Below, piece after piece: positions 975 through 35,600 of a DNA stretch of 64,000 nt (positions within the stretch are counted from its first letter, which is position 1; every line of letters begins with the position of its first letter). Location: NCBI GenBank assembly GCA_964019415.1, contig OZ025871.1, positions 5,154,213-5,218,212 on the forward strand, written 5' to 3'. The position numbers were made by a program, and so were the translations under genes. The notes beneath the pieces are model-generated. The model was given only the letters and a program-made list of their open reading frames with translations, made no database searches and had not been told where the DNA came from. The stretch comes from Ianthella basta (Eukaryota > Porifera > Demospongiae > Verongiida > Ianthellidae).

Positions 975-1209
975 GTGTACATGATTCCTGACAAGGTGGG
1001 CAGTCTATCCCATCACTTGCTAGGCAGGAAATGTTGCAAGACGTTTAAATTGGTTCTGAAACAGATGGCTGCACCAGTCGCCAAGTCCCTTCAGCAAGCT
1101 GTGGCAGTTGGTCTGTTCATCTACCAAGTCCTTTCATCACTTCTATCGATAGCGGCTCACTCTTGTTCAGCTGAGAGCAAGAGAAGTCACAGTGCAGCTT
1201 CATCAGCAG
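975..1209 (+). CDS. possible coding exon of unknown function
   Basis: This open frame is bounded by an acceptor (TTTCTTGTAG) and a donor (CAG|GTACAG). It encodes about 78 residues rich in Ser, Leu and Ala with a hydrophobic central part. A second open block, 1310-1419, follows after CGATTGTAG with a compatible phase 1 and encodes a Cys-rich start (SSCRHCKNC) and a hydrophobic run. The two fit each other but do not join 2327-2465 in phase, so membership of the NLR gene is unproven. They may belong to a separate upstream gene, or be chance. No family is recognised. Confidence 0.25.
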
Positions 1210-1953
1210 GTACAGTGAACGTTATGCCAGCAACTGGTCTTCCTAAATATGTATTGCATAATTATGTGACACATATTACACTAGTGATGTTTATTACTGT
1301 CGATTGTAGGGTCAAGCTGCCGGCACTGCAAGAACTGCATTTCCAAGTACATCTTTGCTGTGAATTCTTTGAGTGTAGTCATTACCTGCATTTCGGTTAG
1401 GAAGAGGTCAGTTCTGATGGTAATGCACATCATGCTAGCTGCTGTCATTGTACGTTGTTGCCATGCATTATGTGATACACAAGGGCCCGTCACAGAAATG
1501 GAGCGGCTGGAGCAATTTTTCATTTGAAGGCTGACCAGCCTATAGGTACCTGCTACTACCTGTACTGGGTTGGGAGACCACAGATGTGTTGAATAACGTG
1601 TTAACCATTGGCATAAAAGATTGGTTAGGATATAGAGATGTTTCAGGAATCCACAATGTATGTGTATAGAGGTGTCACTGTGTCTGAATAAATGTACTTC
1701 TTGGAAACCTAATGTGCTTAGGAAGCCCATTTAGTGATGAAATGCACGTATGATGCTTCCATCATACACCTTGTTCTTATTTCATTACATTCTTCCATGT
1801 TCCAATTAGATCTTGCCGTAATTTAGAGGTTGGTGTGGGTGATATGCTGTTAATGAATTAATTGCCTCATACCATGCAATTACTTGTGAATCAGATGGTC
1901 TGGTGTGATTTAATAGTGCCTTGATATGCCCATGGCTAAGTATATATCATATG

Positions 1954-2326: not shown

Positions 2327-2465
2327 CTGCGGAATGGACCAGATCATTTTTAATGCGTTAGCTGGTGGGCTAGCTCAACAAGTGCAAACAGCCAAGAAGG
2401 GTGCCAGAAGGAAGTGTGGTTGTTCATCAAGGTCATTCTCCATTCAGTGGACCTATGAGATACCA
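2327..2465 (+). CDS. possible upstream exon of the NLR gene (alternative N-terminus)
   Basis: An open stretch lies between a good acceptor (TTTCGTAG) and a strong donor (GTGAGT). It contains an ATG at 2334 and reads MDQIIFNALAGGLAQQVQ before a basic, cysteine-containing part. It ends in phase 0. The 3' acceptor at 2560 opens the 2A exon in phase 0 after a 95-bp intron, so the two would splice in frame and place about 44 residues ahead of the hydrophobic 2A segment. This would turn a cleavable signal into an internal hydrophobic 2A with a separate upstream peptide. No domain is recognised. It could be chance. Confidence 0.35.
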
Positions 2466-2545
2466 GTGAGTACAATGACACTCCAGCTGCAGCTAGCACA
2501 GTGTCATGTTTGTGTCGATAGTCATTTCCATCACTCCTTGTTACG

Positions 2546-2678
2546 ATGCTCTCCTCACAGGTCCTACCCTTGTTGGCTCAGGCTGTATCTGTTACATTTC
2601 TCAGCCTCCTGTTGATCTTGGCTGGAGATGTAGAGGTCAATCCTGGCCCTGGAAAGGGGAAGGAGAGGGCAGCGTCAG
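2546..2678 (+). CDS. NLR exon 1: signal-like segment with 2A-like motif
   Basis: Translation from the ATG at 2546 gives a short N-terminus, a hydrophobic stretch (about residues 6-26) and LLLILAGDVEVNPGP, in which GDVEVNPGP (2624-2650) fits the 2A consensus D(V/I)ExNPGP. At 2A motifs the ribosome skips the Gly-Pro bond, giving two products from one reading frame. Sea-urchin NLRs are known to carry such a combined signal sequence/2A, and skipping decides between secretory and cytoplasmic fate. A basic GKGKER tail follows. The exon ends at CAG|GTTTGT in phase 1 and fits exon 2. A competing reading uses the acceptor CTCCTCACAG at 2560 and joins an upstream exon (see 2327-2465). The motif could also derive from a LINE 5' end, but the phase-matched CARD exon favours the NLR. 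Confidence 0.8.
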
Positions 2679-5600: not shown

Positions 5601-8600
5601 TCTCTTCAATATGTGCATAGACCACATTTTGAGGGAGGCAATGGAGAGGTTTAGTAGAGGAGTCAAAGTGGACGAAAGAAACGTGCAGCTTCTACTATTT
5701 GCAGATGACCTAATGCTGGTGGCTAAGAAAGAGGAGTATGTAGTGAGTATTCTAAGGATCTTGGATGATGTGATGGCGAAAAGGAATATGAAAATGAAAT
5801 GAGGTAAGGCAATAGTTGTGAAAAAGGAGGAGGCTCATGCAATGTTTTGGTGAAGGGAATGGAGGATTGAGGAAGTGAAAGTGATGAAGTATCTCGGGAC
5901 AATTTTCAATAAAGAAGAGTCATGCGAAGATGCAGTGGATGGTAGAATTAAGTATACATGCTGAACCATTGGGCACTGAAGTAGTAGGTCGTAGATCGGA
6001 AGGAACTAAGCAAGACCACACAGTTGAGAGTGTATATATATGCTATCCTAAAGCCTACACTACTTTATGGCAGTGAAACGTGGACACTACAGACCAGGCA
6101 CATGTATGAAGAAGCTGCAGGAAACAGTGATGAGATACCATTGAGGAAGTGTCAGGAATTGATAGGCTAAGAAGTGATGACATTAGAGAGAGACTGTGGC
6201 AGGAATGTGTTGTAGAGACTCTACTAAGAAGGGGCAATGGAGGAGGAAGATTGATGAAGAGGAGAGTATCGCAAAGACAGTATATTTGGAGGAAATGTCA
6301 GGAAAGAGACCAAGAGGGAGAACGAGACAAGATGGGAAGATGGCTCGATTTGACAATGTATACAGAACTATATTCATGAACTAGTTATATATGTAGGCAT
6401 ATTATTATTATTGCAACTGTTCCAGGTATGTATGTATTCTAGCTACCTCCTGCCTAGGAGAAAGAGCTATTGCTGGTTTGATGATTGATTTATTGATTGA
6501 ACTACATAATTATTTGTACACATGCACTATTATGTGTGACTTGATTATGGCAGAAGCACATAATAAGAAAAATGGAGGGAGTGCGCTCCTGATGCTAGTC
6601 ATATATTATCGAAAAGAACATAAGTACAGAGAGTCACTACATGTACCCCTCAGATACCATGCACACAGGGCAGGATCAGGATCAGGATCAGTAAATCTTA
6701 TTTAACATGGGGAACCATTAGCCAATGGCTACTTTTAGTGGCACCTAGAAAACATAATGAAACAATCATATTTAGTTACAAATAATTATAATTATTATTA
6801 TTATTATACAGCTGAATAATTGAAATACTGAAATTGAATAAGTGTACATAGTGAAATAACAGTAATTATGTAAATTGATAATTGAATGAATAATCAGAAA
6901 GGGTTGGTTCTCTAATACCAGCTTCACAACAGGGTTGAAAACCTTGCCGACGTTTCGACCAGATGCTCTGGTCTTCTTCAGGGCGAAGATCTGAAGAAGA
7001 AGACCAGAGCATCTGGTCGAAACGTCGGCAAGGTTTTCAACCCTGTTGTGAAGCTGGTATAAGAGAACCAACCCTTTCTGATGCCTGAGCCAGCTGAGAA
7101 GCCCTCACTTCATGAATGAATAATAAAATAAAATTAATAATTAATAATAATAAATGATGCTACAATATTACTAATAATATGGATAAGTAAATAAGAGACA
7201 ACTAAAGCAGAAACTATTAAAAACATGCAGCCTAGTCATCATTAGCAGCGGGGGAATAAGCCCCGCAAATGGCAAAATGCAATCTAGTCAATGTCGCTGG
7301 CAGGAAGCGATCCCAGCATGGAGGCCGCATAGCCCACTTGGATGGCGCTGGAGAGGCGCTGGAGCAGGTAGGCAAATGAACTGGGCTCTCCAGTTACAGA
7401 CCTGAGGCATTTGCCGAGGTTTCGGAGAAAAGACATGGACTCAGGCCCTACTGTTCCACAGGTTTCAAAGGCTACAGGCTGGAACAGGTAGGCGTGATCC
7501 AAATGGGCATACTTCTTAGCCTTCCCAGACTCGGCAAGTGCAGCGGCTCCACCAGCCTCTCTGGCTGTAGTTGGCTTGTGAGAGTCACAAGAGGTGTCTA
7601 CACATGTGGCGTCCCACACAAGGAATCTTCCGTTGGACCAGGGTATCATTGTCACTCCGTCTGGGCGTTTGCCGTCTTCCCGGAACAGATTGGATGGTTC
7701 CAATCTGCTGGGTATGTTAGCAGAGGCCAGGGAGTGATGGATGATACTGTTTAGCATGTGATGACGGGGGACTCTCCCTTTGCTGAACCTACAGCTCAGC
7801 CCATGATGACCAAATTCATCTACAGGATGACTGCAGGAGCTGCAGGGGTGTGGTAGACAAATGGGAGCACCGACACGCAGGCCAATGGCTGTGCGAAGCG
7901 CATCATCTGACATGCGGAGGCCCAAAAAGGAGATTGGGAGTGCGTTAAGCCAAGCTCCAGACTCGCGGGAGCTTGCCCCGAGGATACGGGAACGGGAGGT
8001 CTGGTCAACACACCGGGCCAGGAGGTTGTCAAGGTGAAACTGGATAATGGGCAGGTCCCAAGACTTCTGATGATTCAAGTTGGTGGGGAGGGGGGTGTCT
8101 GCTGGCAGAGCACCCTTCCAAGCAGTGAGTGCACGGTCCTTGGAAATGTATGGGACAGACAGAAGGTGAGGTGGTAAGAGCTTTAACATGAGTTCGGAGG
8201 CTCCGTCAGCAGAAGCCAAAAAGGCAGACGGTGCAAGACTAGAGCAGCTCCGGAACCCAAGGCCACCCTGGTTGACAGGAAGGGTCGCTTGGCACCAAGA
8301 CAAATCATCAAGTTCAAAGCAGATGTTGGTTATCCTGGAGACAATAGACCTTAATAAGTTGTCCCAAGTTTCCAAGAAGGGAGATGAGAAGGCAGGGGAT
8401 GTCCGCAGGATGTGCAGGAGTTTTGGGATGGAGAAAGAATGGCGGAGAATGGTAATGGCGTCATGCATGGACAGATGGCACAGTCGCTCCCCATGCAATT
8501 AGCTTCAATTGATGTAGTTGTTCCTGCAAAGAAAGGTGCATGGCTGCACCACCTAATGGGGATCCCAACAATTGAGCATGCTCGACATCAGTGAACTGCA

Positions 8601-11600
8601 AATCAGGGAGAGATGAGAGGAGGGAGGAAACAAGGTTACAAATTAGCCTGCCTATACTGTCTGATCATTGCTATTGCATGCATGCTTGAGTCAAATGTCA
8701 TGGCCATTGCAAACAGTATCTTGCAGCACTGTGCAATCAATGTACGTGGCACACAACTGGAGCCGGCAAATGGCAGTGGATAGCTGCCCCTGCCGAGCCG
8801 GTGATGCGATGCTTAGTGAGCAGGGCTGAAGGCTGAACTTAACGCGTAGCTAGACATGCACTTCATTCTTGTATTGATTTACTATGTAATAGTTATAGAC
8901 CTCTTAGTTTGTGATACGATGCATACACAGCACGAGACCCTCAGGCGTTTCGCTTGCTCGTAGCTACGTATACACATACACTTCTGTTCACTCTTGTATT
9001 GATTTGCTATAATATAAATGTAGAAGCTGCACCGTAGAAGCAGCAATATATTAGGCATATGTGAGATCATGCAGTAGCAGTTCTGTTTAAGTGTATAATG
9101 GAAAACCCAGTTGCCAGTACATTTGTTCCTCTTTCCCACTGTTATATCTCAGGGAGCAGCACTCAGCCCATAAGTACATGGAATGCTGATGCAGTAGTAT
9201 CCCTGAGAGAGAAACTGAAACTTAATGTATTATTGCATATGGGACTCATTGATAAACTGGCGAAGGCAGCAGGTGGGTTTATGAGTCATTATGAAGAACA
9301 AGCAGTAAGAGAAGTATCTGGTAACATTGAAAGGATGGATAGAGTCATTCACATTCTTCTTGGAAAGGGAGATGATGACTTCCTCACCTTCTGCAAGATA
9401 TTGCGTGAGAGCAGCAACAGTACCTGGGCAGATGAGCTGGAAAGGATGGCTGAATGGTTCAAGAATAGTGGAAATGGTATGTATAAATGAACATTGTGTG
9501 TGTGTGTGTGTGCGTGCGTGCGTGCGTGTGTGTGTGTGCAGGTAGAAGTGGTGTGTTCATGTGCATGTAATTGTGTGTGTGTATATGTGTATATAATTTT
9601 ATGTGAATATATGTGATGTCATTGCTCACTTATTCAAAGTCATGCTGTATGTATTGATTCTTTCACGGTGCTGAATTCCATGTACACCGAAAGCGTCGTG
9701 ATATAAGTGATATTATATGCCATCTATGCTTTTTTGAAAGGCAGGCTTTAGAGAAAACCATTATATAAGCGCCCCTGAGCTGATTTATGCTTCTTAAATT
9801 CTGTTATCACCCTGCTGGCTTGTTCACACGTTTCACCATCACACGGTTAACATGGCAATGGGGTATGTATAATGCACGTACAACTCAGAGGAGGTTGGCC
9901 ATGCTTTCAATTGCACAACTCCATAATTATGTCACTATGCAATATGTAGCACAATGGCTGCAAGTGACCATGAAAGGAGTGAGTTGGCAGTTTTGTAAGT
10001 CTTGTCACTGCAGAAAAGGTGACTAGCTTCGCACACCCTCCCCTTGTTTCCTGCTATGCTTGCTTGTATGACAGCTTCCCATTGATAGCAGACCTAGAAT
10101 GTGAACTGTGAGCAACACAGACATTAAGAACATCTTGAACTTACTCAAGGGCTCCTTTGGGCAGCAGACTACTGTAAAAATAAGCTTGTCTGGCTATATC
10201 ACTGGTAATTTTCTCATTTAAATGTCACTAGTGAAAAATAGAGACGTTAAGATCAGCGTTTGTGGTAATGTTAATGAGGTCATGTGACCTTTAATGACAG
10301 GGAGAATTGCTTTTTGCAGTTAGCCCCTGCAGGGCAATAGATTGAAAGGGTAATCACTGGATATTACGTCAAGCCTACCAACTACACCAGTATTGGTGTT
10401 TCAGTTGGCAACCAATGATTGCCTCCCCCAGTCATCCAACAAAGATGGAAGAGCCACAGTCAGTTGTTTTGCCCTAATTGGGGCACATCAGTGTGGCATA
10501 CTGATGGTTGATGGTTGGATGACTGGCTGCTTCTGTATCCACTACAAGTTAAACACTTGTGGTGGATACTGAGGCACCAAAACTGGTGTAGTTGGTAGGT
10601 TTGGCATAATATCCAGTGATTACCCTTTCAATCTATTGCCCTGCAGTGGCTAACTGCAAAAAGCAATTCCTTTTTCCTTTTCCTTTCCAAAGCCTTTCAA
10701 CAATGCTTCAGTCGTGATGACTGTAGCCTCCCTTGTCTGTTTCTGTTGAAACCACAAGTGTTTAACTTGTGGTGGATACAGAAGCAGTTGGTAGGTTTGG
10801 CGTAATATCCAGTTATGACCCTTTCAATCTATAATGATGTGTATTGACGTCACCTATAGACATTAGTGTGTGAAGCACATATTTGATTAAGATTGTCGTT
10901 GAAGAGCTAAACATTATCTGCAAAAAATGGAACTTGAATGAAGTTATGTTTTTCTTGTCAAATTTGTATTTAGAGAGCATTCACCTACAGCACAATCAGG
11001 AAACTTGCAGCCATGGAAGATCACTGCAGTTGGTTGTGGAAAACGCCATTCTATGCGAAGGCATTGCTCTACCCATATATACTAACCTTATGTTGGAATA
11101 GCTAGCTGCAAATGAGAACAACTTCATCGGAAACCACTAACGCTCACAGGCTTCATTTAATGTCAGAATTGCTGACGAGTCACCGTAAGGGTTGCGGTTA
11201 TGTGATGCACGTGACTTTTGGCGACGTTCATTCAACATTGATCTTAACATCTCTACTACACTAAACATTTCAGTAGCTGATTCAACTAGTTTTGGTTTAT
11301 AGAGTGTGTACTTAACCCTCAGCGTGCATGCACCACAGGGTTACGGTAGTCGTCGGTGTTTGTCTGTCTCACCTTGTTCTTGCCCTACAGCCTACAAAGC
11401 GGCTTCAGAGCGACGCTAACAGCTTCAGTGCAACACTCACTCTAAAACTATCTGGGTGATTGCGCTAAAACGGCCGCATTCCAGAGCTATATAGTAACTG
11501 GACGTGTACGTTCGGCTGCAATGCAACAGGAGCCAAATGGAGAACTATATTGCACAATGTACCTGAGCAAGTAGTAGTTGACGCGCAGGGTGACAGCTGT

Positions 11601-17600: not shown

Positions 17601-20600
17601 TTTTAAATGATAATGACTCATGTCCTCATGCTGCATGTACAGAACACACTGCAGTGTACACCAGTGCTGTCCTTTCTTTACTTTAATTGATATAATCAGT
17701 GTGGTGGTATAATTCTAGGCACTAAGCAGCAGTACGCAATTTTTTTGCATAGGTGCGTTTTGGATGGACTGTAGACACAGTACCACAGTTTTAATGTAAT
17801 TGTACTTGAGTCTTAGCGTGCAGCATGCCTTTCATGTTAAATTTCATTTGCATCTTCTGTAGATGATACTACAGTTTGCAAAGAATGTAGAAGCCTACAA
17901 TGATGACATGCAACTTGTACAAGACAATTTCTGCAAGGATCAGACAATGAAGTTTGTTAAGCTTGCAATGGCTCCATTCAAGTTGGACTTTGAGAACCAG
18001 CAGAAGAGATTTGTTGAAGCAGTGTGCGATCCAGAAGGTGTGGACAAGGTGTTAACTCTTGTCAAAGGCAAAGTGAAGTATGATGATCTTCCTGACATGA
18101 TTAGACAATACAAGCTCTTAGTCCTAAGTGGTGCTCCTGGTGTTGGAAAGAGCACACTAGCACGGAAGTTGTGTCAAGATATATCTAAAAAGTGTAAGCA
18201 ACATGACTATCAATTGGTGCTTCTGTTGGAGCTTCGTAACCTTATTGGTTACGAGGGTAATACCGATGAGTTTCAAACCAAACACTTGCTGGAGCACTTC
18301 AGTGGCCTGATGTGTGAAGGATGCACACCAGAGATTGTGGCTAGAGCAATTGAAAGGGACTTTGGTAAGGGAGTTTTACTCATCCTAGACGGCTACGATG
18401 AGCTGTCTGCCCCACTACGCCAGTGTCCGTATTTCCATCACCTTCTGACACACTCCCTTCAGTCTCCTCTTTCCAGCTGTGACATTGTACTAACATCCAG
18501 GTCAATAGTCACCAGTGAGATATATCAGCATATCAGTAAATCTACGGCTGCTAGACATTTTGTGAACGTGGAGGTGCTTGGATTTGGAAAGACTGAAATA
18601 AGGAATTTTGCTCGGCAGTACTTTGAGGAGCGTAACCGACCTGACCTGCTGGACTCATTTCTGGACAGGTTGGAGCAGTTTCCCCAAATGAAGAGCCTGC
18701 ACTCTAACCCAGTGGTGCTGTCCATAATTTGTGTTGTTTATTTAGCCCAGGAAAACCTCCCCCGCACTCTGACTGAGGTGTATGATGCTTTTATCTGTGA
18801 GAAGTTATTGCTCAATTCAAGGTCTTCAGATACTCAAGCTGACTCGATCTTACACCTTTCTGATGATCATGATTTTTATCAACTCTGTAGCATTGCTTGT
18901 ACCTGTGTTGTTGAACAGAAGGTCATATTTACATCATCAGAACTCCAGTGTCTTTCATCAAGGTACTCAAATCGTGAAAGTGGGTGTGGTCTCTTAACAG
19001 CACGCCCTGTGGGCAAGTTGAGGAGTACAGTAGCAGCTGTGGACAGCTTCTACTTTCTCCATCTGACCATTCAAGAGTTCCTCAGTGCCGTTCACATTTC
19101 CAGGCAGGATATTTCAGTTCAACAGAAGATCTGGGACAAGTACCTTGGACAACCCCACATGGCTCAAGTGTGGAAATTCTTTTGTGGGATAACCAAACTA
19201 GAGAACTTTGATGCACTCCACCTCACCTCAAAGGTGAAAGACCAGGACTTCTTATTGCAGTCACTTTATGAGTCACAAAATAGTGATGTGACTAGTGCTG
19301 CAATGAAGAATGCTTTCAACGACCACCCAAAAGTAAAGCCAAGGACCCCTTACAGTGCTGTGGCTTATGGTTACTGTCTACAGCAACACCAGAGCATGAA
19401 GAAACTCGCTGTTGTCTGTCGTAAAGACATTCGAGTTTACATTGGTAATCTTCTATCTCCAGTATTCCAATCAGCTTCTGGCTTGCATCTGACACTCAGT
19501 AGATGTCACCCTAAAGGTGAACCTTGATGCATGCAACTAGTTATTGTTTCCACTCTGTTTAATAGTAGCTCTGTTTAGATTACCTTCGCAGTTCATGCCT
19601 CATCAAGGTGTGTTAATTACTGATGTGGAAGTAGTGATTTGCACCTTGCAAGTTGAAGCCCTGCATAGAGAATTACATTGGACTACTTTGAGCTATTTAT
19701 TGCTATTGTTATGCTGTGGGGAGCTCCTTTCATGTCGCTGGTACCTTTCAGTTTTCCACCAGGTCCTACTCAAACAATATATACTTGTTGAATGTAATTG
19801 AACGGCTGATACTGAATAATGTGTATAGGGTGAAGTTTACGAGTCTGTATTTGGTCCAGAAGCACAATGGTACAGCGAGACTGCCAAATAGCGGATAGAT
19901 TGAGGCTCTGATTCATGCCATATACCTTACTTTTGGCAAATTCAGAATTGACTCTTCCTTCCATTGTCCAGCTTTTACCCAATAGCTACTAGTCATTCCT
20001 CCTTCAGAACGACCCTATAATGCCGTAGCTAATGCAGCATTGTGTGAGGCTTTCTATAATTCTTCTTACAAGTGTGCTATACTTGCGTTACTGTAAGATT
20101 GTTCTGCAATGCATCCTTATTTCCCGTTGCTAGGTGCATGGTTGCTATGTTTATTGCGCACCTATAAATGTGCTAAAGCACCTCTTAAGTGTTGGTAGTT
20201 GATAACAATCAGCTACCAATGCTTGTATCTGGATATATACGTTGGTAGTTCATTATCAATTTGCAAGCTCATTGTCTCAGTTGCCAAAGGTCAATGGATG
20301 CAGATATCTAAAACATTGACACAATGCAAGTCATTTGCATCGTGCATTGAATGTGTCCCAACCTACACATGGCATTGGTGCTGGAGGGTTTGATCCCATT
20401 CAGTAGTTGCAGCAGTATTCGAGCACAAATGCTTCACGCTAAAGCCGACCATCAGTGATGTGAGCATCATTTCCCGCTGTATGGCACGATTTCTTCGTCG
20501 TATAGTTAATCTCCACTGTTTTCCAAGCTTCTATGCTGTAGTGTTCGGGCATTTGAGATTGCTTCTGCACTTGGCGCATTCCCTAGGTTATACTGCAACA

Positions 20601-26600: not shown

Positions 26601-29600
26601 TAGACGAAATGGATTAACATAAATAAATTCTGTGCGCACAGAGTTTTACGGAGTGAGTCTACGGAATGCCCCAAATTAAATTGACGGTTCTGATTGGTAA
26701 ATGCTCAACTTTCAAACGATATGCTGGGAACCCGCTCGAATGGCAGGCATTCAGCTAGTAATAATAATAAATTAACTGCACTTGTTGCTCTCAGATAGAT
26801 ACCTTTTTTTAACGGGTATACCCACCGGTATACAGCATAAATACAATAATCAATTAATCTTGCAGGACTAAGCCCATTCATCACTGAGCAGCTAGATCTT
26901 TGAATTTGTATGAGCATCTGGAGATAAAGCAGGCATGATAAAGTGATCTGAACATAACAAAACTCCTGGACATATCATTTTCCCTGTATTAGTCATGCCT
27001 ACCAGCACAAGGGATTCAAGCAGACCATCACCAGAGAAACAGTTATGGGCCAAGCTTGATATTTGACAATTTAAAATGTATAGTCTAGGGGTCAGAGAGG
27101 GCTTGAGATTTGGGGTGGGATTGTTGATGTCATGCTTTTTGCTGAAGACATGGTGTTAGTGGCTAACAGTGAATAGTTCCTCCAAATGAATTTGAAGAAA
27201 TTGGACAAAGCATTGACATAGTGGGAAGTGATAATGAATTGGGAGAAGACGGACGTAATGAAAGTGGGGAAGGAGGGAGGGCATTGCTGTGTGGAAGTCG
27301 GTGCATGGCAAGAAGTTGGAATTGGTGAAGGTAGTCAAGTATCTGATGATAAGTAGGGATGGAAGGAGGAAGAGGTCAGGGGTAGGAATTGGGAAGGCAG
27401 CAAGGGTTATCAGGGTGTTGAGTGAACTGGTATGGAAGAGGAAGGAGCTGTGTAGGAGGACAAAGTTGAGAGTATATACATTGCCAGCTTATAGTCACAA
27501 ACTTCAATAAATTGTAACACAGTACAGTTAAACAATGTGGAGCATATAATAAATGGCATAGGTCAGTATCATGCACACACATAATTGAGGGTTGTGATCA
27601 ATTCAGATTCTGGCTTCCCAGACTGCCAGTGTAGTAGAATCAGGCAATCTGGGGCAGCTATTTTGGCGCGATCCTCTCAGACAAGACACGGATGATTGGA
27701 TCAACGAAAAATTCACCCTGCAGCGGATCCACGTGATGGTGCTGGAGTATGGCTGTTTGGTCTTGGTGGCAATCATGTCAGCAAGACGTCCATAGAACAC
27801 TGCAGCAGACTTGCCCATGCCTCCAGTAGTGCTGAAAATGAGTGGGGTGAAGGAAGCCAGCTCAACTTCATTGATTCTCTGCTCATACAAGCACCGCTTG
27901 ATCTGTTCATGGTGGGCATAACAGGCAGGAGTGGAAAACCTCTTGTTGGATGGTGAGTGTGGGTTTAATACCTTCACGTCAAAAAATCCACGTTGTGAGA
28001 GGTTCCCCAGAATCCTCTTGCCTGAATGTCTGCTCGGGCACCGTCATCAGAGATTGCAGATGCATATCTGGGGGTGTGTCCTTCAAGGGGCTGTAGTGTG
28101 GGCTCCACAGTTACATCATGGCACACTTCAGACAGAAGGCTGCAAGTGATATCCCGAATCTCATTGTAGCGATGAATAGGAAAGGCTCCTTTGGGATATG
28201 ACAAAGCGTGCTCAACGGTGAATGGCTCACCGCACGCACACTTGGTAGGCATTCAATCTGGCAGCCAGTTGTACTGGAGAGCCAATGCATCCCGAAATGC
28301 ACTCCTGTACAAGGTAAATCCTTGGTTCTCAAGAGGCAGAGCAGGCAACCATGAAGATGCCCCTTTATCTTTAGCTAGGTCAACTGACCTCTTCAGTGGG
28401 GCATTTAGCTCAGAATGAATCCTGGCCGCATTATCATCAAGTTGGTTTCTACGCTTCTTCTTCATTTCTAGCTTTGCCTGGGTCATTTCATCCCGTGTGT
28501 CTTGGGAAAAGTCAGCATTAGTAGTGATCAATTCCACAAGTGGGGCTGTAATCAGGTCATTCATACTGGAGCATTGATAACTTGACAGGGTTTATTAAAC
28601 CCATTCCTCCAAGGCGACAGGGTAATGCCAAGACATCCCGTTCCGTATCAGACACTGTGCTTCGGCCAGTGATTGCAGGAATCAACTGGTATCGAATGGC
28701 TTCTTCCAAGGGTGTCAGGAGTTCGGAGATGTTTGGTATTGTCTTTAGGATGTAGTTCCAGAGATGGATTACTCCATGTACGAAGGCAGCGTATGCAGCT
28801 TGTGGTTCCCTTTTTGCAATGGTAGACAGACAGATAACCTCTTCACACCATTTAGCAACCTTCTTCTTTACAAATTTCTTGACAAATTCTGTGCTTCCAA
28901 GTGCAGCTCCAAGGTGCTTCTGTCCACTAGATGTGATGTTAACTCCACTGCTACCAAAGATGTTGGTTGCCTGGTCTAAATTGCCTTCCTTGACAATAAG
29001 CCAGGTTTTGGCAGGATTTGGGTGGTATCCGAATGAAGGGCCTTGTCTCAGCAGTGCAGTCCACCACTCATGTAGATTCAATAGTGAGTCTCCTGCCGCA
29101 GCATCATCCGCGAACCACACCTGCTTAGTGGCTTTCAGCTAGTGAATGAGGGGTAGTATACCCAACACATACATAGACATTGCAAGTGGGTCACCCTGCA
29201 TTACTCCTTCTTTTGACTTCAAAACTTTCCCTTGGATGTACAGGTTTCCATCTCCTCTGTACATATTGGTAAGAACCGTGGCAATGGATGGACAGGTGAC
29301 ATGGATATTGATAACAGCTGTTCGTCTGTTGAGCAGGTTGAACGCTTTTGTGGCATCCACCAACTTAGCTGCTTCAGTGTTGTCATCCTCAAAACTTTTT
29401 GCCATAGCTTATACACCGGCTTCACCTCCTGCTTCCTGGCCTACACACAATTGCACGCACCCTGCCATTTCACGAACTTCTTCAGCAACAACAGTAAGGA
29501 TCACTTTACTAACTATTCTTTGTGAGACTTCTCCAATGGCAATGGGTCGCACACCAGGATGCTTGTCCAGGGCAATGAGCCGTGATGCAGTAAAGGAAGA

Positions 29601-32600
29601 TAGATCGTCAGGGTCTACATACACAGTGCAAAGTTTCTTCGTAACCAAAGCCATGCTGGAACAGAGTTGTGCTGAACTTTTGAAAGAAGTACATATCCTC
29701 CTCTATCCTGCAGCATCGATCCCTGATGGTCCAGCACTGCCATTGGTTTTCAAAGCACATGCACAGATGGCTTCCCCGTTATAGATTCAAATATGACGGG
29801 GTGAAGTTCCTTGCCAGGGTAATCTGTTGCTATGGCTTCTTCCCCAATTGGTGCTTTGTTTGGGTGTTTTGCAGTCAGCTCTTCCAATACAGTCCGCTCA
29901 TCCTGTGCATCATACTTTTCATTGAGGTTGAGAATACCAGCTTCATGCTTTGAGAGAAGGCGAATGGTTGCTCCAACTTTACCTTGTCTCATGAACCTAG
30001 CAAAGGCTTTCGCTAAGTCATCATCTTGGGAGTTTCTCTTCCCTTTCTTTGAGTGAAGTCTTTGTTGGATGCATCTCCCTTCGTGCAGGAGAGAGGATAC
30101 ATTGTCTTTCTTCCATTCATCTAATCTTCTGGCAAGTATCTGCACATGCTCTTTGCTGGTTGACTTTGGGTGAGGCTTTTGCAGAATTAAGGAAGGTATA
30201 GTCATAGCTGCAGATAGTGCAGTTAATTCTCTAGCATTGGATGCACCATAAGATTGGAAAAGAGAGGAAAGCTTAGCAACAAATAGCTCACCCGTCTTCC
30301 CTGAAGGTACATTAAAAATGTTCCTTTTCCATTGGGTGATTTCTTGGTAGGCATCCTGAATCTCTTTTCCAAAGTCTGCACCATCCTTATTGCCCCATTT
30401 GAAGTTTGGGGTGTTGGCTCTCTGAAGGGGTGGTATGTCAAAAGCTGATCCACTCATCTCTAAGCCATGTCTTTCTGAAGCTGGCACTTCTGAGTCTGCT
30501 CTTGAGTCTTCTGAGTCGGCTAGTTCTGAGTCCGGTAGTTCTGAAACTGGTTCATCTGGGTTTGGCAATTCTGAAGGTGGTTCTCCTGAGTCTGGTACTT
30601 CTGAAGCTGGTTCTTCTGAGGCTGTTACCCCTGAGTTTGATGTTGTTCTCGCGACTAGATGATCTAGTGCAGGAAGATTGGGGGAGACAGCTGCTGAAGA
30701 TGATGATGATGAAGATTGGTAATTCTCACAGTTGTCCAAGCGAGATGGGAGACAATTGGTACAGATTCGACCTTCTTTGGAACACTTACAGTTTCTGCAA
30801 TGCCCACTGCGATTGCACTTGCGGCACACAGGCATTTCTCTCTCATGTAATCGAAGCTCGGAATCTTAGGTCGCCATCTTGGCTTGCGCAATCGTCCAAT
30901 CCAGCTTATAGTACACCCATTCATGTGTGGAAGTGAAACGTGGGTGCTAATCTCAGAGAAGAGAAGGTTGGACAGGATAAGGAATGCGGAGATCAGAGAA
31001 GAGCTAAAGCAAGAAGGGGTGTTAGCAAAAGTACAGAAGAGCCAAAGGAGATGAACTGTACCCTTAACTGGGTATTAAGGGGCTAGTAATGGTATGAAGG
31101 TATCAGGTATCAGGTATCAGGTATCAGGTATTCTTATTTTACCTGGGGAACCGTTAGCCAATGGCTACTGTAAATGGCACCCAGAAAAGAAAGGTAAAAA
31201 AATACATGAACACAAAACAAACACTAGTACAAACAAGCAAATTTTATTAAATAGCGGCAATATAAACATAATATTTTGGCTAAGTTATGTTAATGGGTCA
31301 ATTTCGTGCAACTGATAAATACCTAAAAGTTAGAGTAAATTGAAATAATGATCTTGATAGCTAGTAATGACAGTGTTCACAATAAGTATGCCTCACAGAG
31401 TTTTGAAAAAGCTCCAAAGTCTGCACATGTTCTGATGTTCTTCGGAAGAGACCGCCACAAGGAAGCACCAGCAAAACTGAAAGCCTTTTGCCCGAAGCAA
31501 GTTCTTGAAGAAGGAAGATTGAGTTGGCAAGTAGAAGAAGAACGAGTGTTGTAGTGAGAGTTTGGTGAAGAGAAAAGTTGAGAAAGATAAGGAGGAGACT
31601 GAGAAGACAAACATTTAAACATGGTTTGGGCCAGGTGGAGCTTTCTTCTTGCAGAAAGGGTGGAGAGACCAAGTTCACCACGAGCGGAAGAAGCGGAATA
31701 ATCTCTACGCCTACGGAGAACAGTACGGCAAGCAAAGTTCAGCAGGGTTTCCAAGCGAAGAGCTTCATCCCTAGTGCACCCAGACCAAACAACATCACAG
31801 TAGTCAAAAGTGGGAAGAATGTAGGACTTGAGGTAGAGAAGAAGGAGAGGCTGAGGGAGAAACCAAGAAAGACGATGTAGGAGATTGAGGCCACGGGTGA
31901 CCTTGTTGCAGACCATGTCGATGTGGTCAGACCAGGTGAGAGTGTCGTTCACCAAGACTCCAAGAAACTTGAAAAACCGAACCTGTTCTACTTCCATACC
32001 ATCAATCATCAACTCCAGTCCACTGTTGACCTTCTTTCTTGCTGAGTGTATCAGCATGGACTTGGTTTTCAAGGTGTTGAGCTGCAGACCATTTCTTTCT
32101 AGCCACAAGTTTGCCAAGTCAAGAGTGAGTTGAAGAGCAGAGTTGAGAGAAGGAAGATCATCACTAATGATGAAGATAGTGGTGTCATCAGCGAAGAGTA
32201 CAGTAGAGTCAGGAGGAAGGACAGAAGGAAGATCATTTATGAAGGCAGAGAAGAGGGTAGGACCAAGGACCGAGCCTTGTGGTACACCTGAGCATGGAAA
32301 GGCAAGTGAAGAGTAGGAATTAGCGACCCTAGTAACATGAGAACGATTAGAGAGGTATGACTTGAACCAAGAAACAGTGGATGGAGAAAGACCAAGATGG
32401 AACAGCTTTGATAGGAGAAGATCATGGTTCACAGTGTCGAAGGCCTTGGAAATGTCTAGAAATACTACTCCTACAAGCTTCTTGTTGTCTAGTGCTTTGT
32501 ACCACTTATCAAGACAATGAAGGAGAAGAGTTTGGGTAGAGTGAGAAGGACGGAAGCCAGACTGGTAAGGAAAGAGAAGGTTGTTGGAATTGAGATGAAC

Positions 32601-35600
32601 AGAAAGCTGCTTTTGGACATGTTTTTCTAGAAGTTTGCTGGGAACAGGAAGAAGGGAGATAGGACGATAGTTTGAGGGAATAGCACAGTCACCACCTTTG
32701 TGAAGTGGCTTAATGGAAGCACACTTCCAGGGTCCAGGGAAGACAGATGAAGCAATGGATGAGTTCAGGATAGAGCACAGAGGGTAGCAAATGACAGAGC
32801 GAGCAGCAATGAGGGCAGAGGAAGGTATAAGATCAAGACCAGCAGCACACCTTGGTTTCAGAGAAGCAAGAACATCCTCACACCACTCAGGAGTGGTAGG
32901 GGAAAGAGAAAGGGTAGGTGGATGACGAGACTGAATAGGAGGTGAAGGAGAGGATGGAGAAAGACTGGAGGAGCTGACAGAGGCAAAGTGGCCATTGAGA
33001 GTGGATGCAGAATTAGCGATGGAGGCAGAATCAGAGTTGAAGGAAGACCAGTTGCTGGAAGATGAGGTGGAAGAAGTAGCCAGCTTCAGTGTGTTCCAGA
33101 TAGCTGAGGGATGTGACTTTCTACTGATCAGCTGGTGGAAGTACTCATACTTGGCTTTGCGCTGTAACCAGACAACACGGTTTCGCTGAGCCTTGTATAT
33201 GTCTCTAGAAGCAACAGAAAGGGTTCCGATGGTAGAAGCGGAAAAGCCGGTCTCGTCTGTCCATCTCACGTCGAATTGTCTTATCGATCCAAGGTGTGGG
33301 ATTCTTCTTTACTCTAACTGTCTTTAGTGGGGCATGTATGTCTAAAACTTCCATGAATAGGCTGTTAAATGTATCTACTTTGTCATCGGGATCATCAAAC
33401 ACATTAATGATGGACCAAGGCACTAAAGAGAGATCAGCTTTGAAGATGGATTTTGAGAAGTTTTTGAAGGAACGATGGGTGATTAAGGTGGGAGGAGGTT
33501 TGGGAACAGCACAGTTAAGTTGAAGAAGGATGGGCAGGTGATCAGAAAATGAGGAATCAAGAATAAGGGATTTGGAGATAGGAACATCTCGTGAAACAAG
33601 AAACAGGTCCAAGATAGAGTTGGAAGCACCAGAGTAGCGAGTAGGATGGGAGATAGGTTGTGTGAGAGAATGGGAAGTTATGAAGTTTTGGAATGCCCTG
33701 GAGTAAGGTTTGTCCAGGTTAGACATGTCAATGTTGAAATCTCCACAGGCAAGCACATGTTTCCTAGAAACCATCACAGACTCGATATTGTCACAAACAT
33801 CATGGACGGACTGGGCAGAAGAACTAGGTGGACGGTAGAAGCAACCAAGGGCAAGGGAAGGGTGGAAGCAGGCTGACTTGATAGAAACCCAGAGAAACTC
33901 AACACCAGAAGCAGAGACACCAGAGGAAAGTACACAGCAGGGCAGATGATCAGCACAGTATATAGCAACACCACCGCCGCAACGGTTGCGATCACTACGA
34001 AACAAGGAGTATCCAGGTATATGTATCTCACCTTCACCAACCGAAGTGTCCAACCATGTTTCTGAAATGGCCAGGACGTCAGGGCGATGAGTAGACACGA
34101 GGGCAGCGACATCGTCAAAGTGGCGTAGCAGACTTCGGGCGTTCAGGTGCACCACGGTCAGACTGGTCTTCCTGATCGTCTTCCTTCCATTAGCGGTAGC
34201 GTTTGTGTCGCACCTCCTGTGAAGGCGCTGTTGCCCACAAACAGGTCCGGGGTTTGCCTCGACATCGCCGCACAGCACCAGCAAGAGAAGCCAAGGACTA
34301 GACAGTACTTTCGGTGGAGTAGAGCACCTCTTACGTTCCGAAGAGCACCGAACATCTACCCGCCGTGGCAAAGGGGGAGAACCGGAACGTAGCGCGAGGG
34401 CTGATGACAAAGAAACTTCGAGTTCGGGAGCAAGCAACACACAGTTAGATTGTTCAGGATGGATTTGGCTTGTTCTGAAGTCCTGGGCACAGGAGGCGAG
34501 GCGGGCAGTGAGAACGAGCAGGGCGCCAGCAATAACAACTGAAGCTGAGATGGAAGGAAAAAGAAGATGGAAGCCAAGGATAAAATGGGCTAATAATTTT
34601 AAGCAATGACGTACGTACTAATGACATTACATAGCTATATACGTAACAATTCTTCTTTTTGGCTACTGTACATATGTACAGTCACCTGCATAGGAGAATA
34701 TGTCCATTGGCTGATTGATTGATTAATTGAAATAGTCTACGCTAGGCCTAGTAGTCTAGGCCTTTCCCGTTCAATGAACTGACAGCTTCAGAGTGCAAGA
34801 CATACCGATGTAGTTGCAGATGGGCAGTTTGTGAAATGGAAATCAATTGTTCAAGTGCCATAGGTTTAGACGCATCATAAAGCAAGCATTTCTCTAGATA
34901 GAAGTTAATGACAGCTTTCCTTGCTCCAGAGTGACTGAACATCCTGGATTGAAACCAACTACAATCAGAGTGGTCACTCCAAATATAAGAAATGACCACT
35001 TTGAAAAGTTGCAAAGATGAGATGTTATAGCAATTAAGTGAGTGATGTTAACTGTAGACAACAAGGAGAAGGTATGCAAGCTTGTTAAGTGTTGAAGGGC
35101 CTTGCAGAGGGTCATGGCCGAGTACGATGTTGGGAAATCCACTGTTCACAATATCATGAAGAGTATGGAAAAGTGCTAGCCATTCAGAAGGCTAGCAAGA
35201 ATTCACAGATGGAAGAGGAGAGGTCGCTCTTCCAACGGTCTCACTTGCAACTGCCTGCCAATCACTGCAGACAGTGCTCACATGCGTACCTCGAGCAACA
35301 ACCCAGTGTACCCATGGGATGTAAGGTTCTACTCAATGGGCTTTTATTAGAGACTTCCGAAAAGAGAGCAACAAATTGAAGACAGACGACATTAATGATT
35401 ACTTTACCTTACAGTTACAGGGAATTTTATATAAATGCTCTTGCATTGTCAGTGAGTGTTGATAGCGTCAGTTATCTGAACATTTCGATTATCAAAGCAC
35501 TCTCTAGTCCCAACACATGTTCAGATAAGTGACTTCCTATTGTATTATGAACTGCATTCAGCTGAGCTGTACAGTCTGTTGCCATTCATGCGTATGGTTG

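Follow-up and report, generated by a model that had tools for sequence, protein, structure and literature searches.

The window, a stretch of 64,000 nucleotides from the sponge Ianthella basta, contains on its plus strand the exons of a predicted NLR-type gene, in which a hydrophobic segment ending in a 2A motif lies ahead of a CARD exon and a NACHT exon, and on its minus strand a retroelement with a 2A motif of its own. The features are as follows.

1065-1209, plus strand: exon 1, beginning with ATG and the sequence MAAPVAKSLQQAVAVGLFIYQVLSSLLSIAAHS... (MAAPV...), with a hydrophobic segment; it ends in phase 1 at GCAG/GTACAG.
1310-1406, plus strand: exon 2, GSSCRHCKNCISKYIFAVNSLSVVITCISVRK, phase 1 to phase 2, the single candidate of a splice and frame screen.
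2327-2465, plus strand: exon 3 (exon A), with a basic segment (...KKGARRKCGC...), phase 2 to phase 0.
2466-2560, plus strand: predicted intron containing the presumed start ATG at 2546; length 94-111 in 30 copies.
2561-2678, plus strand: exon 4 (exon B), with a hydrophobic segment and the 2A, phase 0 to phase 1; dN/dS of 0.19 in 30 copies, a sign of purifying selection.
2624-2650, plus strand: 2A core GDVEVNPG/P, with NPGP in 30 of 30 array copies; in the model protein, skipping is predicted to fall between Gly-156 and Pro-157.
9153-9476, plus strand: CARD exon, phase 1 to phase 1; Pfam CARD E value of 0.052, which is sub-threshold.
17863-19524, plus strand: NACHT exon, open frame (with its end at 19516 in the first reading); Pfam NACHT E value of 5.3e-19.
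31377-34617, minus strand: non-LTR retroelement with endonuclease and reverse transcriptase (RT) frames; its N-terminal frame likewise includes a hydrophobic run, with GDVEANPGP at 34266.

With regard to NLR features, the NACHT domain is clear, and the death-fold effector CARD, weak in Pfam, is backed by profile matches to the PDB, of which the best are the CARDs of Apaf-1 (E value of 0.0015) and NOD1 (E value of 0.068). The CARD exon has at least 150 matches in the genome. A strict LRR pattern was found in none of the plus-strand frames of at least 28 codons that start after 19400 in the window, and looser matches were unconvincing; in the homologous-protein search, the lengths and coverage of the best 120 of 250 matches fit the NACHT part alone. 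Two open frames on the minus strand, at 7284-8498 and 28557-29138, resemble by eye the remnants of reverse-transcriptase-type repeats. They fall between and after the NLR exons.

The codons at 2624-2650 on the plus strand (GGA GAT GTA GAG GTC AAT CCT GGC CCT) read GDVEVNPGP and are preceded by the hydrophobic run VLPLLAQAVSVTFLSLLLILA, which bears out what an earlier sequence-only reading had reported of the motif and its hydrophobic surroundings. The octapeptide D(V/I)ExNPGP is present at 2627-2650 and in 30 of 30 array copies, and the LLLILAG before its D fits, by sequence, the L-rich class of 2A with (A/S/C)G before D, as defined in the part of PMC12846837 used here. The 30 fetched array copies, which are the 30 best leader matches and were hence chosen by similarity to the leader, all keep GDVEVNPGP, with synonymous differences, and the dN/dS of the 2A core across them is 0.11. 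Among 18 more-divergent loci, L092 has NPGS instead of NPGP and the sequence of L088 stops short of the end of the motif. Written as a degenerate DNA pattern, DVExNPGP gives 307 matches in the 209-Mb genome, retroelements included, against none for the reversed pattern and an expectation from base composition of about 0.1 per genome, which rules out a chance origin of the motif. Two of the matches lie within the window, at 2624-2650 (plus strand) and at 34266 (minus strand, in the retroelement).

The 45-residue leader belongs to an array. Thirty copies (89-100% identity) lie at 3.95-8.19 Mb of the window's contig (C4), all on the plus strand, together with 56 copies of the NACHT exon at 3.97-8.32 Mb, likewise all on the plus strand. 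For 28 of these 56 NACHT exons, the same strand carries a leader at a distance of 9-21 kb upstream, while the other 28 have no leader within 25 kb upstream among the matches listed; genes with and without 2A are thus interleaved. The array looks as if two gene types alternate in it. More-distant leaders are grouped in two blocks on contig C2 or lie at scattered loci.

The co-occurrence of 2A and NACHT was counted on 152 positions, merged from 100 of the 307 pattern matches and 74 of the 133 leader matches, and on 227 NACHT positions, merged from 102, 78 of 79, and 69 of 80 rows, so that all fractions are lower bounds. A listed NACHT exon lies at most 25 kb downstream on the same strand for at least 70 of the 152 positions and on the opposite strand for none of the 152. 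By group, this holds for at least 28 of 31 positions in the C4 array, at least 12 of 13 in the second block of C2, at least 15 of 41 in the first block of C2, and at least 15 of 67 2A sites elsewhere (retroelements included). When only the leader family is considered, a NACHT exon is found downstream of at least 28 of the 30 array leaders and of at least 27 of 60 leaders elsewhere; for the remaining 2 of 30 and 33 of 60, there is none among the matches listed. Position and strand place the 2A upstream of NACHT for those 28 of 30 array leaders, and a gene on C2 does so within a full open frame. There are about 90 related gene starts (30 in the C4 array and 60 elsewhere), more than half of which are seen ahead of a NACHT exon.

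Some points about the assembly may be added. A silicatein search, meant as a demosponge check, gave 10 matches: the best had 49% identity over 120 residues, four had 60-67% over 48-49 residues, and the others had 31-46%. The leaders at C4:5156758 and C4:6838688 are 1.7 Mb apart, and their leader, CARD, and NACHT exons are 100% identical, which may reflect a very recent duplication, gene conversion, or an assembly effect. Three NACHT matches on contig C95 score identically to three at C4:12.07-12.17 Mb, which suggests an unplaced haplotype copy.

The sequence-only reading had the gene begin with a combined signal/2A sequence at the ATG at 2546. The hydrophobic run followed by a 2A stands; the start is not supported, as this ATG belongs to the final 15 bases of a predicted intron (2466-2560). 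The intron has GT and AG ends in 30 of 30 copies, with lengths in all three remainders modulo 3, whereas the ATG is present in 23 of 30, and we have demoted the N-terminal start at 2546 for this reason. Three of the 30 array copies have neither ATG 2546 nor ATG 2334. In the alignment of the 30 array loci, conservation drops sharply right after 2678, and there is no drop at 2546. The dN/dS of exon 4 in 18 divergent copies is 0.47 in frame versus 0.77 and 0.86 off frame; this comparison covers 18 of 20 loci, from which L079 (partial) and L100 (no comparable in-frame acceptor) were omitted. An ACAG acceptor in phase with the 2A frame could be located in 18 of the 18 loci, where it was picked among the CAGs in phase with the 2A, so that “in phase” is partly by choice; the acceptor sequence is similar throughout the 18. 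The splice scores of the window itself are low (1.7 for exon 4 and 3.0 for exon 3), and the donor of exon 1, GTACAG, falls outside the scoring.

An alternative promoter might still produce a message that begins at ATG 2546, in which case the 45-residue leader would be an N-terminal signal/2A as in sea-urchin NLRs. The in-frame ATG of 23 of the 30 copies would permit such a message, C2-type copies have an in-frame Met inside exon 4 (for example, MLSPVVSLHPYFFLRALLLLAGDVEANPGP), and there is the sea-urchin precedent itself (PMC4981915, in the part used here). We nonetheless consider this explanation unlikely: the ATG lies in the acceptor region of the predicted intron, it is lost in 7 of 30 copies, 3 of the 30 lack ATG 2334 as well, and exons 1 to 3 accompany the leader across families. 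For the 23 of 30 copies that have ATG 2546, an extra transcript from it may exist beside the longer message.

The predicted longer message would begin with exons 1 to 3. The GT of the exon-3 donor is kept in all 30 array copies, and the length of the segment 2334-2465 is 132 bases in 29 of the 30 and 129 bases in the other one. The dN/dS of exon 3 is 0.395 in frame versus 0.99 and 0.61 off frame in the 18 divergent copies, and the donor GTAAGT follows it in 18 of 18 divergent loci; within the array, it is weakly constrained (dN/dS of 0.68 in 30 copies). Because exon 3 starts in phase 2, further coding sequence must precede it. Exon 3 as the first coding exon, read from ATG 2334, was rejected on account of this phase and of the ATG being present in only 20 of 30 copies. 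The exon-3 peptide of the C2 gene, which as a query gives 69 genome matches, is 51 residues long and lacks Met ahead of residue 38; exon 3 could therefore be the first coding exon of that gene only with a late translation start.

Exon 1 has 29 genome matches, all 29 inside the array and none with a stop, and looks clearly coding from its dN/dS of 0.17 in frame versus 3.74 and 0.95 off frame (positions 1113-1208, 8 sequences only). Joining it straight to exon 3 was rejected, as the two, read from the sequence, are in phase 1 and phase 2 and thus out of frame. A pairwise screen of 1211-2326 for an exon leading from phase 1 to phase 2 returned one candidate, 1310-1406, whose splice sites and frame are kept in all 15 of the paralogues with sequence there. 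An earlier automatic screen, made on the global alignment, returned no candidate for exon 2, our guess being that the upstream part of this alignment is too gappy. Exon 2 has 31 matches without stops in the array, and a 32nd match is weak, lies outside the array, and has stops. The evidence for it as a coding exon is mixed: conservation of splice sites and frame speaks for it, while its dN/dS in the array (0.89 versus 0.61 and 1.32 off frame) shows no purifying selection. A search for direct repeats of at least 20 bases in 900-2700 found none.

These exons travel with the leader. Exon 2 lies upstream of 30 of 30 array leaders and exon 1 upstream of 28 of 30; outside the array, 60 of 63 exon-3 copies, found by a search made without the 2A, are followed by a 2A-leader exon. 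The C2-type exon 1 has a different sequence of like plan: it too contains a hydrophobic segment and basic residues, and its serine-rich end is in phase 1. Its 53 matches go down to 34% identity and have no stops, the weakest having E values above 1, and 51 of the 53 have exon 3 within 2.5 kb downstream. The C2-type exon 2 has 36 matches, 35 of them without a stop. These counts use 63 of 69 exon-3 rows (six weak or partial ones omitted), 53 of 53 exon-1 rows, and, besides the 30 array leaders, 60 of the 133 leader matches. At L107 the donor of exon 1 lacks GT, and at L105 no open frame runs from any ATG to the exon-1 donor.

When joined, the segments 1065-1209, 1310-1406, 2327-2465, and 2561-2678 and the CARD exon form one open frame from ATG 1065. 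The model protein has 156 residues before the Gly-Pro bond, with a net charge of +9 and hydrophobic segments at residues 13-31, 58-76, and 128-146 (by Kyte-Doolittle averages only). In this model, the 2A is not at the extreme N terminus, its place in sea-urchin NLRs, since exons 1 to 3 lie upstream of it in the one frame from ATG 1065. Two other divergent gene classes can likewise be read from an ATG, and their exons 1 to 3 end in phases 1, 2, and 0 as in the window. In one of them, a gene on C2, a phase-1 donor (GTAAGG) closes exon 4, after which come a second death-fold-like exon and then NACHT, and the frame runs for 878 residues without a stop through NACHT. The third gene (L108 joined to L089) was read only up to the 2A, and the phase of its exon-4 end is not fixed by a splice site; a phase-1 GTAAGG can be read just past the 2A. 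Three divergent N-modules, one of them a hand join across L107 with its exon-1 donor lacking GT, are 32-35% identical to that of the window, with the 2A core invariant except for the x residue. A Pfam scan of three N-modules gave no match.

Downstream of the 2A, both the end of exon 4 at 2678 (before GTTTGT) and the beginning of the CARD exon at 9153 (CTCAG/GG) are in phase 1, and the in-frame joining of the 2A exon to the CARD exon that had been claimed is therefore feasible as judged from the sequence. Six of six paralogous loci likewise have a phase-1 donor after the 2A and a phase-1 CARD acceptor, the distance from 2A to CARD being 241-290 bases in five of them and 2,475 bases in one. The further claim, that CARD is spliced in phase directly to NACHT, had to be given up, because the phases differ: 1 for the CARD donor at 9476 and 0 for the NACHT acceptor at 17863. 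Phase-1 acceptors in 17800-18000 (at 17891, 17894, and 17924) all cut into sequence shared by the paralogues. The phase clash and the position of these acceptors inside the exon suggest that at least one exon linking CARD to NACHT is probably missing from our gene model of the window.

Four array leaders (L039, L048, L049, and L050) have, about 1.2 kb downstream, a different death-fold-like exon in place of the CARD exon. This alternative exon is 69-71% identical to that of the C2 gene, and a Pfam scan of two such exons gave no match above the cut-off. At these four leaders, as predicted from the exons, the same 2A module is attached to a different effector domain.

The motif, the chain of exons with its phases, the family-wide co-occurrence, and the NACHT exon downstream can all be read in the DNA as assembled. 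Taken together, they point to what is probably a host “polyprotein” NLR gene, in which a membrane-type N-module and a cytosolic CARD-NACHT receptor are kept apart by a 2A/StopGo sequence. From the same sequences, we infer splicing, membrane insertion, ribosome skipping, and a role of skipping in placing the receptor. The product of exons 1 to 4 would be a basic N-terminal module, 156 residues long, that contains three hydrophobic segments and ends with the 2A, and the hydrophobic segments of exons 1 and 2 would be out of the tunnel, possibly inserted in a membrane, when the ribosome reaches the motif. At GDVEVNPG/P, formation of the Gly-Pro bond would fail in most cases: the membrane-type module would leave the ribosome with a tail of 2A sequence, and translation would go on to a separate cytosolic CARD-NACHT receptor with proline as its first residue. 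Where the bond does form, the receptor would remain tethered to the membrane. Since the end of exon 1 and the start of CARD are both in phase 1, a message lacking exons 2 to 4 would encode a tethered receptor free of 2A; the exon 1-to-CARD join reads open, and this 2A-free isoform is a prediction from phases alone. As exons 1 to 3 accompany the leader, the split between secretory pathway and cytosol that had been proposed becomes a choice between a membrane module plus a free receptor, on the one hand, and a tethered receptor, on the other.

The extension of this model to the whole family is more tentative, and we regard it as possible rather than probable: the approximately 90 NLR-type gene starts would be cellular polyproteins, each message giving two proteins (a multisegment membrane protein and a free CARD-NACHT receptor), and the efficiency of skipping or the splicing of exons 2 to 4 would set the tethered share. 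StopGo/2A is used “only rarely in cellular genes,” according to the part of PMC12846837 used here. If the extension is true, about 90 gene starts with an internal 2A in a single genome would be a large natural set for the study of cotranslational separation in an immune family, and with this family one could ask experimentally if the location of the receptor depends on skipping.

The motif could instead be inactive, so that the whole N-module anchors the receptor in the membrane and the motif was inherited or is conserved for another reason. The FMDV 2A is fully active only with over 30 residues of its native sequence, and chimaeras often lack activity (PMC12846837, in the part used here); against this, the octapeptide is canonical, its upstream context is L-rich, NPGP is unchanged in all 30 array copies, and the core has the low dN/dS given above. 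We judge inactivity to be somewhat less likely even than a start at ATG 2546. That the leader is a piece of a non-LTR retrotransposon is highly improbable. In favour are the element at 31377-34617 (minus strand), which has GDVEANPGP at 34266 ahead of its endonuclease, and 10 leader matches among the 133 that fall within open frames of 1,010-1,163 codons, from whose size such elements may be suspected. Endonuclease and RT, however, follow the 2A in frame in that element but not after the leader at 2561-2678, where CARD and NACHT exons follow instead, for which reason this description of the locus was rejected, and the six paralogues have matching phase-1 sites on the 2A exon and the CARD exon. 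A remote origin of the leader motif from a non-LTR retroelement may be envisaged.

The preferred reading, a 2A internal to a host NLR gene, can be compared with several known systems. Elsewhere, 2A sequences cause the Gly-Pro bond to be skipped, and their L-rich upstream motifs end in (A/S/C)G before D (PMC12846837, in the part used here). Like the FMDV-type 2A/StopGo, the Ianthella motif has the canonical DVExNPGP, an L-rich stretch, and AG before D; unlike it, it lies in a host gene, is flanked by a membrane-type module and an immune receptor, and is a candidate for skipping. Odon et al. in 2013 reportedly described 2A in APE-type non-LTR retrotransposons. The window gene shares with these elements the same motif in the same genome, with one copy in the window, but their 2A is followed by endonuclease and RT, whereas the leader of the window is followed by CARD and NACHT. 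Sponge NLRs of the CARD-NACHT(-LRR) type, for example, those of Dysidea avara, also form large expanded NACHT families (PMC12909245, in the parts covered), and the same parts of that account mention no 2A peptides. Our literature search for 2A together with NLR, NACHT, sponge, or Porifera found no internal 2A in NLR genes among the matches listed, of which only the sea-urchin paper and those citing it seemed to bear on the question; the survey of eukaryotic 2A sequences by Rao et al. (2025) was outside its scope and may list relatives.

The closest parallel is the sea urchin Strongylocentrotus purpuratus, and the precedent cited in the sequence-only reading does exist: an N-terminal 2A of 26 residues is found in 14 of 87 NLR entries, with an earlier count of 85 of 241, and the leaders of these NLRs partition the product between cytosolic and exocytic fates (PMC4981915; Roulston et al. 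2016, in the part used here). In both animals, a 2A-like element lies upstream of NACHT in many NLR genes, in Ianthella as judged mainly from position and strand, and retrotransposons of the same genome also carry 2A (PMC4981915, same part). In the sea urchin, as far as that part of the account goes, the 2A is the N terminus of the protein, whereas in the window gene it ends a module of 156 residues, in a family of about 90 gene starts. On our gene model, the internal 2A of Ianthella is thus a variant of the N-terminal 2A of sea-urchin NLRs.
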